From the NCBI GenBank assembly GCA_005881175.1, contig VBEN01000010.1:1-50610 (forward strand): a stretch of 50,610 nucleotides of DNA, given 5' to 3'. The position numbers and the translations under genes were made by a program. The DNA comes from Chloroflexota bacterium (lineage in GTDB: Bacteria > Chloroflexota > Dormibacteria > CF-121). Shown piece by piece: positions 6,650 to 14,275 of this stretch (within the stretch, counting starts at the first letter, position 1; each line of letters opens with the position of its first letter). The notes beneath the pieces were generated by a model. The model ran no database searches. It saw only the letters and a list, made by a program, of their open reading frames with translations, and had not been told where the DNA came from.

Positions 6650-6917
6650 GTCGCCCCATCATCTCGCGCAACCGCCGCGGCGCCGGCGCGAGGGCGCCCG
6701 TGGCAGGGCCCCAGAGAAAATGCCCGAGCGTTATCCCCACCAGCACAGCAACGATGAAGGCCCAGCCTGGAAACGCATGCACGGCCTCTCGAAAGTAATC
6801 GCTGATCGGCTTATTGCCGGTGAACAGGGCCCAGGTCTCAAAGGCCATCAGCAAAAAGACCGCGCCGACGAATGCCGTCACCAGGAACGAAAAGAAGTTC
6901 CCGCGATTGAGAATCAT
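6636..6917 (-). CDS. Two-helix membrane microprotein B
   Basis: 93 residues: two transmembrane helices (about 8-30 and 52-71) and a short basic C-terminal tail (RRLREMMGRR). It starts with an ATGA overlap on the opuCA stop, so it is almost certainly co-translated with the ATPase. It is paralogous to the next gene, and the GHFLW motif ends the second helix. No known domain is recognised. The pairing with an OpuC-type ATPase is the only functional hint. Confidence 0.7.
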   Translation of the reverse strand: MILNRGNFFSFLVTAFVGAVFLLMAFETWALFTGNKPISDYFREAVHAFPGWAFIVAVLVGITLGHFLWGPATGALAPAPRRLREMMGRRAGN

Positions 6918-8032
6918 CGACGGGCGGCGGCGCCCTCAACCTCCGCCGGGACCCGCTGGATCGCCGCGACGAAGGACGCCGGTGTCAGCACCCCATAGAA
7001 GCGATCGCCATCCACGACCGCCACCCAGTTCGCCTGGTGGATCAGCATCTGCGAGAAGGCATCGTACAGGGTGCGGTCCGCCGGCACCGTTGCGTCCAGA
7101 GGACGGGCCCGCTCACGGACGGGCCCACTGCCCTCGAGCTGGCTGCCATCGAGCTCACCGACCGGGCGGCCGTCGCGGTCGAGGACGATCAGCCGCGTCC
7201 ACTTCCGGTCCAGCCGGCTGCGTGCATCGGCCAACGACTCGTCGGGGTGCACGATGGGAGGGCTCTCCAGCGCGTTGAGGTCGATAGGGGTGACCGAGAG
7301 CCGTTTCAACCCGCGGTCGGGCCCGAGCAGATCGATGACCAGGTCCGAGGCGGGCTTCGCCAGGATCGCGGTCGGCGTGTCGTACTGCTCCAGTCGCCCC
7401 TGGTTCATGATCGCGATCCGGTCGCCGAGTTTGATGGCCTCATCGATGTCGTGGGTGACGAACACCACGGTCTTGCGCACCTCGCGCTGGATCCGCAGAA
7501 ACTCGTTCTGCAGGCGCTCCCGGGCAATCCGGTCGATGGCTCCGAACGGCTCATCCATCAGCAACACCGGGGGGTCGGCGCCCAGCGCTCGCGCCACGCC
7601 GACCCGCTGCCGCTGTCCGCCGGAAAGCTGGTGCGGGTAGCGGCGCGCAAAGCCGCGTGGGTCAAGCCCGACCAGCTCGAGCAGCTCATTGACTCGGCGC
7701 GCGATCCGACGCTTGTCCCAGCCCAGCAAGCGGGGCACGGTGGCGACGTTGTCGGCGATCGTGAGATGCGGGAACAGGCCGACGTTCTGGATCACATAGC
7801 CCATCCGAAGGCGCAGGGTGACCGGGTCGATGTGGGTGACGTCCTGGTCATCGTGCAGGATGCGCCCGCTGGTCGGCTCGATGAGCCGGTTGATCATTTT
7901 CAACGTCGTTGTCTTGCCGCACCCCGACGGGCCGACCAGCATGGTGAGCTGCCCGGTATGGAAGTCGATCGTCAGGTCCCGCACCGCGGCCTGCGCACCG
8001 TACCGCTTATTAACCCCTTCCAGCCGAATCAT
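6914..8032 (-). CDS. OpuC/ProV-type betaine-choline importer ATPase with CBS domains
   Basis: 372-residue ATPase of a quaternary-amine/compatible-solute importer (OpuCA/ProV group). Walker A GPSGCGKT is at 34-41, then signature LSGGQRQRV, Walker B VLLMDEPFGAID and switch HDIDEAIKLGD. The C-terminal ~110 residues form a CBS pair, which in OpuA/OpuC sense ionic strength or cyclic dinucleotides (family knowledge). It is transcribed away from the permease genes rather than with them. A TAGAGT -10 (8049-8044) gives a very short leader before ATG 8032. Two membrane microproteins follow in an overlapping operon. Confidence 0.92.
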   Translation of the reverse strand: MIRLEGVNKRYGAQAAVRDLTIDFHTGQLTMLVGPSGCGKTTTLKMINRLIEPTSGRILHDDQDVTHIDPVTLRLRMGYVIQNVGLFPHLTIADNVATVPRLLGWDKRRIARRVNELLELVGLDPRGFARRYPHQLSGGQRQRVGVARALGADPPVLLMDEPFGAIDRIARERLQNEFLRIQREVRKTVVFVTHDIDEAIKLGDRIAIMNQGRLEQYDTPTAILAKPASDLVIDLLGPDRGLKRLSVTPIDLNALESPPIVHPDESLADARSRLDRKWTRLIVLDRDGRPVGELDGSQLEGSGPVRERARPLDATVPADRTLYDAFSQMLIHQANWVAVVDGDRFYGVLTPASFVAAIQRVPAEVEGAAARR

Positions 8033-8086: not shown

Positions 8087-8770
8087 ATGCTGGCCACCGG
8101 GGTCCTCGGGGCAGCGGACGATCCGTGGATCCGGTGGGATTGGGTTTCCGGCCACACGCAGGTCATCCGCGCCGCGCTGATGCAGCACATCGAGCTGACG
8201 GTGATTGCGGTCGTGGTTGGATTGGTGATCGCGGTTCCTCTCGGATTGATCGCCTGGCGCCAGCGATTCCTGCGCGGGCCGATCTTCTCGGTCACCGGCA
8301 TCCTCTATACGATTCCCTCCCTCGCCCTCTTCGCCATCCTGATCCCCTTCACCGGGTTGACCCTCCTCACCGCGGAGATCGGGCTGGTGAGCTACACCTT
8401 GCTGATCTTGATCCGGAACATCGTCGTGGGAATGGATTCGGTTCCGGCCGAGATTCGAGAGGCCGCCCGCGGCATGGGATTTCGTCCCTTTGCTCAACTC
8501 TGGCATGTCGATCTACCGCTGGCCCTCCCCGCGATCATGGCCGGGATTCGGATCGCGACCGTGACCACCATCGGGCTGGTAACGGTCACGGCGCTGATCG
8601 GGGAGGGTGGCCTGGGCAGCTTGATTCTCGACGGGCTGATCCGTGACTTCAAGTCGCCCCTGCTCGTGGGTACCGTTCTTTCCGTCGCCCTGGCGATTGT
8701 GGCCGACGTCAGCCTGGCGGGCGCGCAGCGCGTGATTACGCCGTGGGCCCGTGGCAGGGTTCGCGCGTGA
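8087..8770 (+). CDS. OpuC-type ABC permease, first subunit
   Basis: 227-residue inner-membrane permease of the OpuCB/OpuCD (YehW/YehY) group, with about six helices and the binding-protein-dependent transport signature EIREAARGMGFRPFAQLWHVDLPLALPAI (split here: EIREAARGMG, then LWHVDLPLALPAI). It forms the translocation channel with the next gene and the divergently encoded ATPase. Leaderless start at ATG 8087. It overlaps the second permease by GTGA. Confidence 0.92.
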   Translation: MLATGVLGAADDPWIRWDWVSGHTQVIRAALMQHIELTVIAVVVGLVIAVPLGLIAWRQRFLRGPIFSVTGILYTIPSLALFAILIPFTGLTLLTAEIGLVSYTLLILIRNIVVGMDSVPAEIREAARGMGFRPFAQLWHVDLPLALPAIMAGIRIATVTTIGLVTVTALIGEGGLGSLILDGLIRDFKSPLLVGTVLSVALAIVADVSLAGAQRVITPWARGRVRA

Positions 8771-9477
8771 ACTTTCTCGGGCAGGTGCTGCAGTGGTTTC
8801 TCGACGGAATCCACTGGCAGGGCGACCAGGGCATTCCCAATCGACTCCTCGAGCATGTGTCCATGTCGGCCCTATCGCTGCTCGCCGCAGCGCTGATTGC
8901 CCTGCCCATCGGCATCATCCTCGGTCATTTCGGACGTGGGGGAAACCTGGCCATCAACATTTCCAATGTCGGGCGTGCGGTTCCGTCGTTCGCCCTGCTC
9001 GTGATCGCGGTGCAGCTTGTGGGGATCGGCCCGCTGCCAGCTTTCCTCGCTCTGGTGGCGCTTGGGATTCCGCCGATCGTGACCAACAGCTATGTCGGCA
9101 TGCAAGAAGTCGATGCGGACATACGGGAGGCCGCCAGGGGCATGGGGATGCGGGGGCGTGTCGTACTCTGGAAGGTCGAGCTTCCGATCGCGATGTCGTT
9201 CATCATGGCCGGCCTGCGGACGTCGGCCGTGAACATCGTCGCGACGGCAACGCTGGCGGCCCTGGTCGCCTGGGGAGGCCTTGGCCGGTTTATCGTGGAC
9301 GGCCTGGCCCAACGCGATGTGGTGCAGCTTTTCGCGGGGGCGCTCCTGGTGGCGCTCCTCTCGATTGCGGTCGAGCTGGGCATGACGATGCTTCAGCGAA
9401 TTACGGTGCCCCGCGGACTTCGAATCCGAGACTTTACACAGGAGGAGGTAGGGATAGACGTAGTAGCGGCCGTTTGA
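8767..9477 (+). CDS. OpuC-type ABC permease, second subunit
   Basis: 236-residue permease paralogous to the preceding one, with about six helices and the EAA-loop signature DIREAARGMGMRGRVVLWKVELP. Start GTG 8767 was chosen because it overlaps the upstream TGA (GTGA). An upstream ATG at 8743 in the same frame would add 8 residues inside the previous gene. Followed 37 bp later by the substrate-binding lipoprotein. Confidence 0.92.
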   Translation: MNFLGQVLQWFLDGIHWQGDQGIPNRLLEHVSMSALSLLAAALIALPIGIILGHFGRGGNLAINISNVGRAVPSFALLVIAVQLVGIGPLPAFLALVALGIPPIVTNSYVGMQEVDADIREAARGMGMRGRVVLWKVELPIAMSFIMAGLRTSAVNIVATATLAALVAWGGLGRFIVDGLAQRDVVQLFAGALLVALLSIAVELGMTMLQRITVPRGLRIRDFTQEEVGIDVVAAV

Positions 9478-9514
9478 CGTTGTGATCGGTTCTCATTTGG
9501 GAGGTGAAGTCGGA

Positions 9515-10459
9515 ATGCGAATGGAGCGAATCTTCGTGCTCGGCGCCAGCATGGTGGCGCTGGCACTCGTCACGACCTCGTGCGGATCGACAGGTGGGCC
9601 CTCCAGCTCGACCTCGGGACCCATCGCCAGCCAGATGACTCTTGGCGGACCCCCGGAGTGCCCCACCCGACCGTTTTGCGAGGCGGGCCTGACGTCGAAA
9701 TACGGCCTGCACTTCAAAGCTTTCAAGGCGCTCGATGCCGGCGGGCCACTCACGAAAGCCGCGCTCGACCGCGGCGACATCGATATTGGCCTGATCTTCT
9801 CGAGCGACAGCGCCTATTCGACCGGGAAGTACGTGCAGCTGGAGGATGACAAGCACCTGCAAAACGCCGACAACGTCGTGCCGCTGATCAAGAGCAGCAA
9901 GGCGAGCGCGGACGTCACCGCCCTGCTCAATGAGATCGACGGCAAGCTCACAACCCAGGACTTGATCTCCCTGAACAAGAGCGCTGATGTTGACAAGCAG
10001 GACCCTGACGTGATCGCGAAGAAATGGCTGATGGATCACAGCTACGCCACGTCGGCGTCGGGCGCCTCCAAAGGCACGCTCAACGTGGGTGCGCTCAACT
10101 TCCCGGAAAGCGCGATCATCGCCCAGATCTACGGCCAGGCGCTCAAGGGAAAAGGTTACAGCGTCAACTTCAAGCTAAACCTGGGCGCTCGCGAGGTGGT
10201 TGAGCCGGCACTCGAGCGCGGCGACATCGACCTCTTCCCCGACTACGCCGCGACCGAACTGGAGTTCCAGAACAAGGGCAAGGGTGAGGCCACGCCCGAC
10301 GCGGCGGCGACCGTCACGAAGCTGAACACCTACCTCGGCCCGAAGAACCTCAAGGCACTCGATCCGTCGCCCGCCGTCGATCAGAACGCGTTCGCCGTCC
10401 TGAAATCCGGCAAATACGGCAAGTACACCAAGCTCTCGGACCTCGCCGGAACCGCCTAG
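9515..10459 (+). CDS. Circularly permuted OpuC/OsmF-type substrate-binding lipoprotein
   Basis: 314-residue lipoprotein that captures a quaternary amine (betaine, choline or similar) for the adjacent permeases. ATG 9515 was chosen because GGGAGGTGA lies about 7 nt upstream. A signal peptide ends LVTTSC with lipid Cys23. The order of halves is inverted relative to the OpuCC/OsmF/mycobacterial ProX pattern. Residues 42-176 (GGPPECPTRPFC, DAGGPLTKAALDRGDIDIG, LEDDKHLQNADNVVPL, KLTTQDLISLN, VDVD-like DPDVIAKKWL) are normally the second half. Residues 187-314 (LNVGALNFPESAIIAQIYGQ, LNLGAREVVEPALERGDIDL, PSPAVDQNAFAVL, KLSDLA) are normally the first half. Both halves are intact. A comparable swap separates OpuAC from E. 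coli ProX. Confidence 0.9.
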   Translation: MRMERIFVLGASMVALALVTTSCGSTGGPSSSTSGPIASQMTLGGPPECPTRPFCEAGLTSKYGLHFKAFKALDAGGPLTKAALDRGDIDIGLIFSSDSAYSTGKYVQLEDDKHLQNADNVVPLIKSSKASADVTALLNEIDGKLTTQDLISLNKSADVDKQDPDVIAKKWLMDHSYATSASGASKGTLNVGALNFPESAIIAQIYGQALKGKGYSVNFKLNLGAREVVEPALERGDIDLFPDYAATELEFQNKGKGEATPDAAATVTKLNTYLGPKNLKALDPSPAVDQNAFAVLKSGKYGKYTKLSDLAGTA

Positions 10460-10526: not shown

Positions 10527-11564
10527 TCAGCCTTTCCAGTCTGCGATGAATTGCTTTTCTTTCTCCTCGACGCGCGCGCCAATCATCGGATGCAGCTCGA
10601 TCGCCGGCGAGTAGCGACTGGCCGGAACGGTTCGCCCCAGCGCCTCGGCCATGGCCCGGACATAGTGGGGCGAGCCACCACAGCAGATTCCGATGTAGTT
10701 GACGCCCAACGCTTTGGCGCGGGCGGCGTAGGCGGCCATCTCGAAACGTGTGCAGAGGAAGGGCTCGAGCGCGATGGGAAAGACGCGCGTTCCATCGTCC
10801 GTTTTCAGTGACTCGAACGTCGGCATCTCGGGCGCCGTTTTATAGGGCACCGGCTGGGCCGCGACGTAAACGCTGACCCGGCTGCGCACCTGTTCGACGA
10901 TCGGCAGCATGGTGGCCGGCCCGCGGTCGCAGTTCAAGCCGACGATGTCCGCCCCGTTGTCCGCCAGGATCTTGCAGGCATCGACGTAGTCATAGCCGTC
11001 CCAGGTCTGGTGCGGGCGGGTCGAGGCCAGGGTCACCATGGCGGGCAAGCCGAGCTCCTTGATCACCTGGAGGGCGATCAGTGATTCTCCCAGGTAATCG
11101 TTGGTTTCGGCGATGACAAAATCGATGCCCTCCTCGGCGGCCCACGACAGCTGTTCCTCGTACATCCGGCGGACCACCTTGGAGGAGGTCGCTTTGTCTT
11201 TCGGGTCATAGGCCCAGGTGTTGCAAATGTCCCCCGCCACGAGGGCATCGCCTTCGCGGGCCACCTCGTTCGCCAGCCGCACCGCCTGCCGGTTCAGCGC
11301 CTCGAGGTCGTTTTCCCGGCCGACGGTTTTCAATTTCTGGCGATGGGCGTAGTAGGTGAGAGCGACCATGACATCGGCACCGGCGCGAAGGAATTCGCGA
11401 TGGAGCTCGCGCAGCGCGTCCGGAAAATCGAGGACGACTTCGGGGACATACGGACCGGCTTTGATGTATCCCCGCCGTTCGAGTTCGAAGACGTAGCCTT
11501 CGGCGCCGACGACAACATCCGTCTTCAGTCGTTCGAGGAGGCCGCGGCTGCTCCTAGCCGGCAT
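10527..11564 (-). CDS. Homocysteine/betaine S-methyltransferase-family enzyme
   Basis: 345-residue zinc methyltransferase of the BHMT/homocysteine S-methyltransferase family, a TIM barrel. The three zinc ligands are Cys212 (GLNCDRG) and Cys294-Cys295 (GICCGG). TFESL- and YAARAKALGVNYIG-type segments support the barrel fold. Such enzymes move a methyl from betaine or S-methylmethionine to homocysteine. Next to a betaine-type importer and a sarcosine-oxidase-like enzyme, betaine as methyl donor is the best inference. It overlaps the flavoenzyme gene upstream by 11 nt, so it is the last gene of a cupin-flavoenzyme-methyltransferase operon. Confidence 0.87.
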   Translation of the reverse strand: MPARSSRGLLERLKTDVVVGAEGYVFELERRGYIKAGPYVPEVVLDFPDALRELHREFLRAGADVMVALTYYAHRQKLKTVGRENDLEALNRQAVRLANEVAREGDALVAGDICNTWAYDPKDKATSSKVVRRMYEEQLSWAAEEGIDFVIAETNDYLGESLIALQVIKELGLPAMVTLASTRPHQTWDGYDYVDACKILADNGADIVGLNCDRGPATMLPIVEQVRSRVSVYVAAQPVPYKTAPEMPTFESLKTDDGTRVFPIALEPFLCTRFEMAAYAARAKALGVNYIGICCGGSPHYVRAMAEALGRTVPASRYSPAIELHPMIGARVEEKEKQFIADWKG

Positions 11565-12717
11565 GGCTTGTCACAAACCGCTGGGGATCGAACCGGGAAA
11601 TATCCGCGCGCGGGCTGCCGCCCAGTGCCAGCTCCGACAGGGTCCGGCCGATCATAGGAGCGAACTTGTAGCCGGTGCCGCGCCAGCCGGTTCCAATCAC
11701 TGCGCCGGGGACTCCAGGAATCTGACCGAGGATGAAGTTGTCATCTGCGACCAGATCATACGAGCATTGGTCCGCCCCTTCCACATCGACGACCTGGGCA
11801 TCCGCCAGCACCGGCATGCACTGGCTAACAAAGCTCTGGACACTGGCGATGGAGGTGGTCTGCCGGCGGACATCCGGCGGGTTGTAGTAGCCGATTTTGA
11901 CGCCCGGCGTTTTCCCGACGAGCATCGGGTGGCCGTAGATGCCAACGTCGAGATAGGCGAATACAGGTAACCGATCCGGCGTGAACTGGTCGCGCTTGTT
12001 GGGCGGGGGGATGAAATATTTCGATTCACTGGGCCGGTCCGGACGCACCGGAAGCTGGAGCGCGCAACCGTCGATGCGGGCCAGCAGCTCGTTGGAGCCG
12101 AGCCCGGCGGTGATCACCAAGCGTTCCGCCAGGCGCTCCCCCACCGCAGTCTCGATGACGATCCGGCCACCTCGCCGGTGAATCCGCTCCACGCGCGTCC
12201 CATCCTCGATGCTCACCCTTGCGGTCTTTAACCGGGCGAGCAGCGTCGCGGTGATGGGCGGCACATACAGACACCCAGCCTCGACGTCGAGCCGGCCGAT
12301 GTCGGCATCGAACTGCGGAAAGCGCGCCCGAAGGCCCGAACGGTCGAAGGCGCTGGTGCGCAGTGCAAGGTCTTGCAGGACCCGGTAGCTCTGCTCCGCA
12401 TACGTGCCCGAGAGATCCGGCGTCACGCTGGCTCGGGCGATATTGAGACAACCGCATTCGATCAGGAAGGGCTCCGACGATTCGGCCTGGAATTCAAGCC
12501 AGAGCTTTCGCGCCTCGTACGCCAGGCGCGCGTAGAGAGGATCCAGGTAATCGTTGCGGATCGACCGGGTCAGGCTGAAGGAGGCTGCTCTTCTATCCCC
12601 GATCCGCCAGGGATCGACAACCAGGATCCTCGCCGATCGCCGGCTCGCGAACAAGGCCGTGAAGAGGCCCATGACGCCGGCGCCGACGATCGCCAGGTCA
12701 TAGACGATCTCAGGCAA
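11554..12717 (-). CDS. Sarcosine-oxidase-like FAD-dependent amine oxidase
   Basis: 387-residue DAO-family flavoprotein closest in pattern to monomeric sarcosine oxidase/N-methyl amino-acid oxidases. Dinucleotide motif VGAGVMG is at 11-17. SFSLTRSIRNDYLDPLY matches the family's TR-x-IR region. DQCSYDLVADDNFI places Cys318 where MSOX carries its covalent 8-S-cysteinyl FAD, and Lys274 (GVKIGYY) matches the oxygen-activating lysine. It likely demethylates sarcosine, dimethylglycine or a related N-methyl amine, releasing formaldehyde and peroxide (family knowledge plus context). Start is TTG 12717. Same-strand operon with the cupin upstream and the methyltransferase downstream. Confidence 0.85.
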   Translation of the reverse strand: MPEIVYDLAIVGAGVMGLFTALFASRRSARILVVDPWRIGDRRAASFSLTRSIRNDYLDPLYARLAYEARKLWLEFQAESSEPFLIECGCLNIARASVTPDLSGTYAEQSYRVLQDLALRTSAFDRSGLRARFPQFDADIGRLDVEAGCLYVPPITATLLARLKTARVSIEDGTRVERIHRRGGRIVIETAVGERLAERLVITAGLGSNELLARIDGCALQLPVRPDRPSESKYFIPPPNKRDQFTPDRLPVFAYLDVGIYGHPMLVGKTPGVKIGYYNPPDVRRQTTSIASVQSFVSQCMPVLADAQVVDVEGADQCSYDLVADDNFILGQIPGVPGAVIGTGWRGTGYKFAPMIGRTLSELALGGSPRADISRFDPQRFVTSHAG

Positions 12718-12756
12718 GCGGCAATCCGGCGAGGGCCGCGGCTGGCGAAGGAGGGC

Positions 12757-13380
12757 TCAGCCGGCGAGCCGGTTCGTGTCCGGAATCAACTCTTGCCCAT
12801 CCGGCCCATCGGGCTCGTCGCCGGACCGGGTGCAGTATCGCTCGTAATGAGCACGGTAGCCGAGTAGCCAGCCGACGGGGGCCAGGACCAGGAGTCCCGA
12901 GCGCATGAACCGAGACTGGCCCAGCGGACGGGTCTCGCGGCGATAGGCGGCGGTGATGACCGCCCACTGCAGGATGTTGCGGAGCCCCCGAAGATGGTGC
13001 TTGCCGTCCCGGGCCAGCCCGAAGGTCGTTTCCGAGAACTCTTGCTTGAGGAGCCCCGGCCGGAACTCCACGATCAGGTGAGCCTCGACGTCGCCCGCGT
13101 TCCACAGGGAGTGCGGCGTTCGGGCGGGGACGATCAGCATCTGGCCGGGTCCGAGCTCGAATCGCTCCCCATCGATCGAAAACGAGGCATTCCCCGAAAC
13201 GACGGTGAACTGCGATTCCTGGATCGGGTGAACGTGGGGAACGCCGACGCTGCCCCCGGGTACGAGCCATGACTCGTATTGCACGAGCGCACCATTGGTT
13301 TCCGGGGCCGTTTTCAGGAACCGGATGCGCTCGCCATGGAGCGGATTTTCAATTATCGGGCCGGCGATGGGCGACGTCAC
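12757..13380 (-). CDS. Cupin-domain protein with C-terminal membrane segment
   Basis: About 207 residues. A single cupin barrel (VPHVHPIQESQFTVVSGNASF, then GQMLIVPARTPHSLWN) supplies metal-binding His and Glu residues. After it comes a region with one hydrophobic stretch (SGLLVLAPVGWLLGYRAHYE) likely to anchor it in the membrane, and a polar tail. GTG 13380 was preferred because the frame upstream (open to 13512) overlaps the divergent gene and looks non-coding. Function unknown; its place at the head of the flavoenzyme/methyltransferase operon suggests a sensory or chaperoning role in that pathway (inference). Confidence 0.75.
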   Translation of the reverse strand: MTSPIAGPIIENPLHGERIRFLKTAPETNGALVQYESWLVPGGSVGVPHVHPIQESQFTVVSGNASFSIDGERFELGPGQMLIVPARTPHSLWNAGDVEAHLIVEFRPGLLKQEFSETTFGLARDGKHHLRGLRNILQWAVITAAYRRETRPLGQSRFMRSGLLVLAPVGWLLGYRAHYERYCTRSGDEPDGPDGQELIPDTNRLAG

Positions 13381-13471
13381 CTCGCAACGAGTGTTTTGCG
13401 GAGTATGCCAGAAGCGGATCGCCGGCGCAAGGAATTCGGCACCTGTGTGCGATACTGCCGTCAACTCAGCC

Positions 13472-14275
13472 GTGAGAACGCTGGTTTTCGCGAACTTTCT
13501 GGCGCCCAACATGACCTCGACTTACACGGATGTCGTCCAGGAGGTCGGGCGGCGGCTCGGCCTGCCGGCGACCCTGGTCGAGGGGGTTTCCCTCGATCAA
13601 TTGCGGCAGGCCACGGTGGACGTCGCGTTCCTCTGTGGTCTTCCCTACGTGCGCCTCCTCAAGGAGCAGCCCGGGATGCTCCGTCTCCTGGCGGCGCCGG
13701 TTCTGGACGAGCCGCGCTACCGCGATCGCCCGCTCTACTTCTCCGACGTCATCGTGCGCCAGGACAATCCGAGCCGGTCGTTCGCCGAGCTGCGCGGCCG
13801 GAGCTGGGCTCACAACGTCGAGGACTCCTATTCGGGCTGTTTCGTTACCCGCTACGAGCTGCACCGCATGGGTGAAAGTGAGAGCTTCTTCGGCCGGGTA
13901 ACGTACTCGGGCGGACACCAGGAATCGATCCGACGGGTCGTCGCCGGAGAGGTCGAGGCCTCTGCCATCGACTCGCACGTGCTTGGGATTGAGCGCGTGC
14001 GAAACCCGGGGCTCGACCAACAGCTGCGGGTGGTTGCCGTGTTCGGCCCATCGGCGATCCCGCCGGTGGTTGCCACCGCCAATCTGCCCGACGACCTGGG
14101 GGCCCGGGTCGCCGCCGCGCTGGCCGCGCTCGGCGACGATCCGGCGAGCCGTGCGCAGCTCGCCCCGGGCATGATCCGGCGATACGTCCCCATCGCCGAC
14201 GAGGCCTATGACGAGATGCGGCGAATGCTCGACGCTGTGGAGCGAAGGCCGCCACCTATCCGAGTGCCGGCTTGA
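13472..14275 (+). CDS. PhnD-like phosphate/phosphonate binding protein lacking a signal peptide
   Basis: 267-residue periplasmic-binding-fold protein of the PhnD/phosphite-binding type. It begins directly with the first beta strand (TLVFANFLAPNM) and has DVAFLCGLPYVRLL, NVEDSYSGCFVTRYEL, GGHQESIRRVVAGEVEASAI and DSHVLGIE, typical of this family. GTG 13472 is the start; further upstream codons are out of family. No signal peptide or lipobox is present, so it may be cytoplasmic or a ligand sensor rather than a transporter part. No permease or ATPase partner is nearby. It is divergent from the cupin operon and overlaps the DUF2269 gene tail to tail by 20 bp. Confidence 0.78.
   Translation: MRTLVFANFLAPNMTSTYTDVVQEVGRRLGLPATLVEGVSLDQLRQATVDVAFLCGLPYVRLLKEQPGMLRLLAAPVLDEPRYRDRPLYFSDVIVRQDNPSRSFAELRGRSWAHNVEDSYSGCFVTRYELHRMGESESFFGRVTYSGGHQESIRRVVAGEVEASAIDSHVLGIERVRNPGLDQQLRVVAVFGPSAIPPVVATANLPDDLGARVAAALAALGDDPASRAQLAPGMIRRYVPIADEAYDEMRRMLDAVERRPPPIRVPA

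Follow-up and report, generated by a model that had tools for sequence, protein, structure and literature searches.

The 314-residue substrate-binding lipoprotein (SBP) encoded at positions 9515 to 10459 of the window (the whole stretch of Chloroflexota DNA analyzed here, 50,610 nucleotides long) is circularly permuted: the segments that form the second half of its relatives come first and the canonical first half follows, all within one intact reading frame. Our joint reading, which we hold to be very probable, is that this is a working, permuted binding protein of the OpuC/OsmF class (PF04069) that arose through tandem duplication, and that its rotation (M-C-N in the notation below) has appeared in about four groups and another (C-N-M) once. 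Segment order, intact frame, selection, synteny and the way in which permuted sequences nest among unpermuted ones were observed directly; we infer transport activity, the effect of moving the lipid anchor, the duplication route and the direction of change.

Permuted binding proteins are already known. Among glycine-betaine-binding proteins, OpuAC and ProX included, members are related to each other by circular permutation (PMC2395249), and Treponema pallidum MglB-2 (TpMglB-2, Tp0684) is a circularly permuted glucose-binding lipoprotein that retains ligand binding, for which its authors propose tethering as a possible reason (PMC4990184). Like the SBP studied here, TpMglB-2 is a lipid-anchored protein with swapped order, but it has a type I sugar-binding fold outside PF04069 and was described as one family. 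The surprising part is the recurrence, and the interest lies in its combination with the occurrence of both forms at a single locus of one genus. In nature such permutations mostly pass for old events that separate remote proteins; here the two forms share one locus in one genus, with an unpermuted sister 77% identical in sequence. We found no report of permutation within the OpuC group in the open-licence literature.

Segment order and locus

We denote the canonical first half of these proteins N and the two parts of the second half M and C, so that the usual order is N-M-C. Segment profiles built from unpermuted relatives recover M-C-N in the SBP and N-M-C in most relatives. The features of the locus are as follows.

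6914 to 8032, minus strand: importer ATPase (OpuCA/ProV-like, ABC_tran and CBS), divergent
8087 to 8770, plus strand: permease 1 (BPD_transp_1)
8743 to 9477, plus strand: permease 2 (BPD_transp_1)
9500 to 9507, plus strand: Shine-Dalgarno-like GGAGGTGA, 7 bases 5' of the ATG (by inspection)
9515 to 10459, plus strand: circularly permuted (M-C-N) substrate-binding lipoprotein, 314 aa
9515 to 9583, plus strand: signal peptide, ending at putative lipidated Cys23 (lipobox by inspection)
9584 to 9619, plus strand: Ser/Gly/Thr-rich tether, now entering segment M, not segment N
9620 to 9820, plus strand: segment M (canonical second half, first part: IASQMTLGGPPECPTRPFC...FSSD; segment HMM E 1e-34)
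9827 to 10048, plus strand: segment C (canonical second half, last part: VQLEDDKHLQNADN...KKWLMDHSY; segment HMM E 3e-34)
10049 to 10072, plus strand: new C-to-N linker ATSASGAS
10073 to 10447, plus strand: segment N (canonical first half: LNVGALNFPES...NAFAV...KLSDL; segment HMM E 1e-57)

The frame runs intact from the ATG at 9515 to a TAG stop at 10457–10459. Two adjacent half-genes or a frameshift are ruled out by this single open frame with its stop at 10459, the next gene lying on the opposite strand. The sole Pfam match of the protein is PF04069 (OpuAC): residues 40–172 fall on profile positions 114–255 and the downstream half on positions 2–113 (E 3.0e-19 and 1.4e-14, six-frame search), so that positions 2–255 are covered by two swapped stretches at 123.6 bits against a cut-off of 21.2. 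Because both stretches of the profile are present in exchanged positions, the order is swapped and a chance motif match is excluded.

Searches against the PDB with phmmer agree. In native order the protein gives two crossed stretches to 4z7e, 6eyg (OpuCC/OpuBC) and other entries, and no full-length colinear alignment was seen; with its halves exchanged, the same entries align as single stretches (for 4z7e, query 15–270 to chain 35–289, E 1.3e-18). As controls, an unpermuted relative from genome G016 is colinear in native order with AfProX (1sw1, 7–273, E 1e-23), and E. coli ProX is colinear on the Pfam profile. The clean half-swap within one ORF that the first-pass annotation had proposed from the sequence, with an end-to-end match expected in rearranged order only, is thus confirmed as a circular permutation. 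Two details needed adjustment: the short linker is present at the junction it had placed at residues 177–186, with boundaries closer to 179–186, and the signal is lipoprotein-like with Cys23, although TTSC is no textbook lipobox.

The SBP gene lies directly 3' of the two permease genes and completes an ATPase-permease-permease-SBP locus with a ProV/OpuCA-kind ATPase; no PF04069 protein other than its product was found in the genome (89% complete, 246 contigs). OpuCC/OpuBC, AfProX, EgtU and E. coli OsmF are homologous to it in both halves and share the locus type with two permeases and an ATPase, but all are N-M-C. It scores 61.4 bits against the OsmF equivalog NF049931, whose cut-off is 400. 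The other permuted copies examined, of both rotations, also adjoin permease genes and nearly all an ATPase gene as well, two of these loci ending at the edge of the available stretch.

Predicted fold and relation to OpuAC

AlphaFold2, given an alignment of permuted relatives together with the separate halves of unpermuted ones, predicts a complete two-lobe fold for the SBP (mean pLDDT 94.5, pTM 0.87), and the model matches PF04069 structures in Foldseek, in line with the structural check proposed at first pass. The loop connecting the SDL helix to the MTLGG strand contains the new termini, and comparison with known structures places this loop in lobe II. The top Foldseek ranks against the PDB are held, with full-length matches, by B. 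subtilis OpuAC (2b4l, 3chg, 5nxx, 2b4m; about 290–300 columns), with modest TM-scores of 0.54–0.58 that possibly reflect a difference in lobe closure. AfProX, 4z7e and 5nxy rank lower (TM 0.35–0.38) though closer in sequence, and OpuCC/OpuBC-type entries likewise fall behind OpuAC.

OpuAC (PDB 2b4l) is the relevant precedent. Compared with E. coli ProX (PDB 1r9l), it gives crossed phmmer matches (ProX 154–218, 250–321 and 28–121 on OpuAC 14–77, 89–155 and 164–255), and its rotation relative to ProX, cited as a parallel at first pass, is that of our SBP, M-C-N at the matching loop. This shared rotation and the OpuAC-led Foldseek ranking could suggest that the protein belongs to the OpuAC branch proper and has inherited its permutation from there, with no new event. 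We regard this as very improbable: phmmer against the PDB at E<=0.01 returns OpuC, AfProX, EgtU and OsmF entries and no OpuAC entry of the 2b4l type, and each half is 77% identical to an unpermuted relative. An M-C-N protein whose nearest sequences are OpuC and AfProX carries the OpuAC rotation in another branch of the family, the OpuC/OsmF-like one, and on sequence grounds we conclude that it reached that rotation independently.

Both forms at one site within the genus

The site 3' of permease 2 holds a permuted gene in five genomes of the genus (G000, G002, G005, G011, G014) and an unpermuted gene in three others (G004, G007, G013). The permuted form is carried by 5 of the 13 genus members with a match and by a small minority of genomes beyond, which disposes of the concern that the swapped order might be the common form of the subgroup. 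Outside the permuted clade, the unpermuted gene of G016 comes nearest (77–78% identity per half); the whole-protein tree gives it this position with support of 99/88, and in each half-tree it is the nearest by path. Permuted and unpermuted genes of the genus have nearly the same signal peptide (9515–9616 in the window; L095), in several cases 85–88% identical over residues 1–34, on differing bodies; the G016 gene has a different signal peptide despite its nearest unpermuted body. Between G011 and the window the SBP is 95.5% identical and permease 2 only 72%, a contrast that suggests transfer of the permuted allele among genus members by recombination.

Across four intact permuted orthologues dN/dS is 0.044–0.095 over 313–314 codons, and the permuted SBP is under strong purifying selection. 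An error of assembly or binning, a concern because the window's genome is metagenome-assembled and fragmented, has next to no probability as the source of the swap in our judgement; with dN/dS low and the same order intact in G011, G014 and G002 of the genus, in other classes and in another phylum, it is ruled out. The permuted gene of G005 (L094, 7268–7274) ends about 40 residues early, near residue 275, and is either a pseudogene or the product of an assembly error.

Distribution of rotations and number of origins

A search of related genomes for the same order, suggested at first pass, found M-C-N genes well beyond the genus. Elsewhere in its class the form occurs in G059, and elsewhere in its phylum in family f21 (G223, G411). 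Others come from one class of Actinomycetota (G446, G447, G471, G475) and from Actinomycetia (G550, G608, G772), with remote relatives in G040, G063 and G096. M-C-N is a minority form, most matched genomes having N-M-C. A third rotation, C-N-M, opens the chain between FSSD and LVVLEDDK. It was found in Catellatospora, Blastococcus and others, in about 15 of the 198 matched Actinomycetia genomes, and is likewise predicted to fold (pLDDT 90.2). Recurrence across lineages and the existence of a third rotation both go beyond what the first-pass annotation had envisaged.

A tree of 91 sequences, all brought into a common segment order, with E. coli OsmF as outgroup, requires seven changes for M-C-N, of which at least six are forced by starred branches; a single change is found in none of 200 bootstrap trees. 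The N-half and MC-half trees require six changes each, at least five and at least three of them forced, respectively. These parsimony figures count changes without direction. AU tests, run on quick trees with groups picked after tree inspection, reject the gathering of all M-C-N proteins in one clade (p 8e-32) and each of the four two-group unions examined: the window's class plus f21 (4e-6), the window's class plus the G446 class (2e-65), f21 plus the G446 class (0.004) and the G446 class plus Actinomycetia (5e-4). The placement of the remote genes is unreliable. For the window's group and G059 taken together (p 0.12), as for the G446 class by itself (p 0.57), a single origin is not rejected, so that the seven changes may represent fewer gains. 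We count the window's group and G059 once for this reason, and the two f21 genes may also form one group. Because the window's group with G059, the G446 class and f21 may each be single, our cautious count is about four separate M-C-N groups in Chloroflexota and Actinomycetota, in addition to OpuAC. C-N-M is monophyletic (99/98) and arose once, within Actinomycetia.

The AU tests rule out that all M-C-N proteins form a single clade of one origin. Such an origin could be retained by supposing one ancient permutation, with the nested unpermuted genes as reversions or as products of homogenization by gene conversion, and the near-identity of the new ends across groups (N-terminal [IV]AS[QKT][LM], C-terminal SDLA..) might seem to favor this. 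We nevertheless consider it improbable: beyond the rejected clade and the six changes demanded by each half-tree, gene conversion is implausible between proteins 45% identical, the shared end motif is present in unpermuted genes too (L018), and the tight canonical N-M junction of unpermuted genes and the colinear AfProX, OpuCC and OsmF outgroups suit N-M-C as the ancestral order. One further idea, which we hold to be rather improbable, is that the family is a permutation hot spot: one lobe II loop would have supplied the new chain end in each of about four lineages, and a different site would have done so in a fifth, because relocating the anchor between lobes is selectively useful in tethered binding proteins.

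Some further observations concern individual groups. Permuted and unpermuted copies coexist in G446, G475, G471 and G449 (L080/L086, L098/L116, L099/L122 and L125/L162, respectively), and these pairs are natural material for functional comparison. Three remote M-C-N proteins (L059, L060, L061), about 27% identical, have a long Cys-containing linker and adjoin ATPase and/or permease-like genes; G063 also has an unpermuted gene. In the C-N-M loci (L041–L046, L126–L139), C2 and C222 (alignment A2) are invariant in 18 of 18 aligned proteins and may be linked as a disulfide close to the new N-terminus.

Proposed origin of the permuted gene

Most likely, an unpermuted gene was tandemly duplicated and the outer parts, N of the first copy and M-C of the second, were then lost. 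The old N- and C-termini would thereby have been joined via a short Ser/Gly linker that is a remnant of the second copy's tether. Every permuted protein has a Ser/Gly-rich C-to-N linker resembling the tether found after the lipidated Cys of unpermuted proteins, and the linker of our SBP looks like a canonical post-lipobox tether; the N-M junction of unpermuted proteins has no extra linker. The new ends also share a few loop residues, with SDLAGTA at one and IASQM at the other, where unpermuted proteins have SDLTSVAAQM. Linker and overlapping ends are compatible with duplication and trimming of an N-M-C ancestor. Tandem or 1.5-copy intermediates (e.g., N-M-C-N) were not seen among the classified loci.

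What the rotation would alter is the tether, the lipid anchor entering lobe II instead of lobe I. The system makes possible a direct study of the duplication-and-trimming route, of the junctions and of the effect of relocating the anchor, and it offers naturally tested break points for the design of binding-protein sensors. It is also a warning that colinear annotation pipelines see such genes as two partial matches.

Probable role and candidate ligand

The two-lobe clamp and the docking surfaces should stay unchanged by the rotation, and ligand capture between the lobes with delivery to the adjacent permease pair is expected as a consequence. The most likely role would accordingly be the ordinary one of capturing a small ligand for that pair. 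For betaine, the reference is the AfProX site, which we take to consist of a four-tyrosine cage (63, 111, 190, 214) with Lys13, Thr66 and Arg149. By sequence alignment only, Y63, T66 and R149 are kept (as Y244, T247 and R52) and K13, Y111, Y190 and Y214 are replaced (by L194, N291, F95 and D119); unlike AfProX, the SBP has most of the cage missing, and the full cage of an AfProX-kind betaine binder is not present. The loss is a trait of the subgroup, since the unpermuted G016 protein also lacks these residues. The mapped residues give no clear betaine site; for M. tuberculosis ProX, a protein of a related group, a lack of betaine binding has been reported (PMC7034087).

The poor conservation of the cage, with Y111, Y214 and K13 replaced, might instead indicate that the permuted protein folds but serves a non-import role, for example as a sensor or scaffold. 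We think this quite unlikely, given that the same residues are missing in the unpermuted G016 protein and that the gene directly follows two permease genes, and we retain the ordinary importer function.

Downstream on the other strand, 10527–13512 encodes homocysteine S-methyltransferase, a SoxA/N-methyltryptophan-oxidase-like protein and a cupin. These neighbors possibly belong to methylated-amine metabolism and hint faintly at a methylated-amine ligand; the hint is weak because the homocysteine S-methyltransferase and SoxA-like genes were not found at the corresponding place in G016, G004 and G013. Further along lies an ORF for a PhnD-like binding protein (13295–14275), which in its first part overlaps the cupin ORF of the opposite strand.
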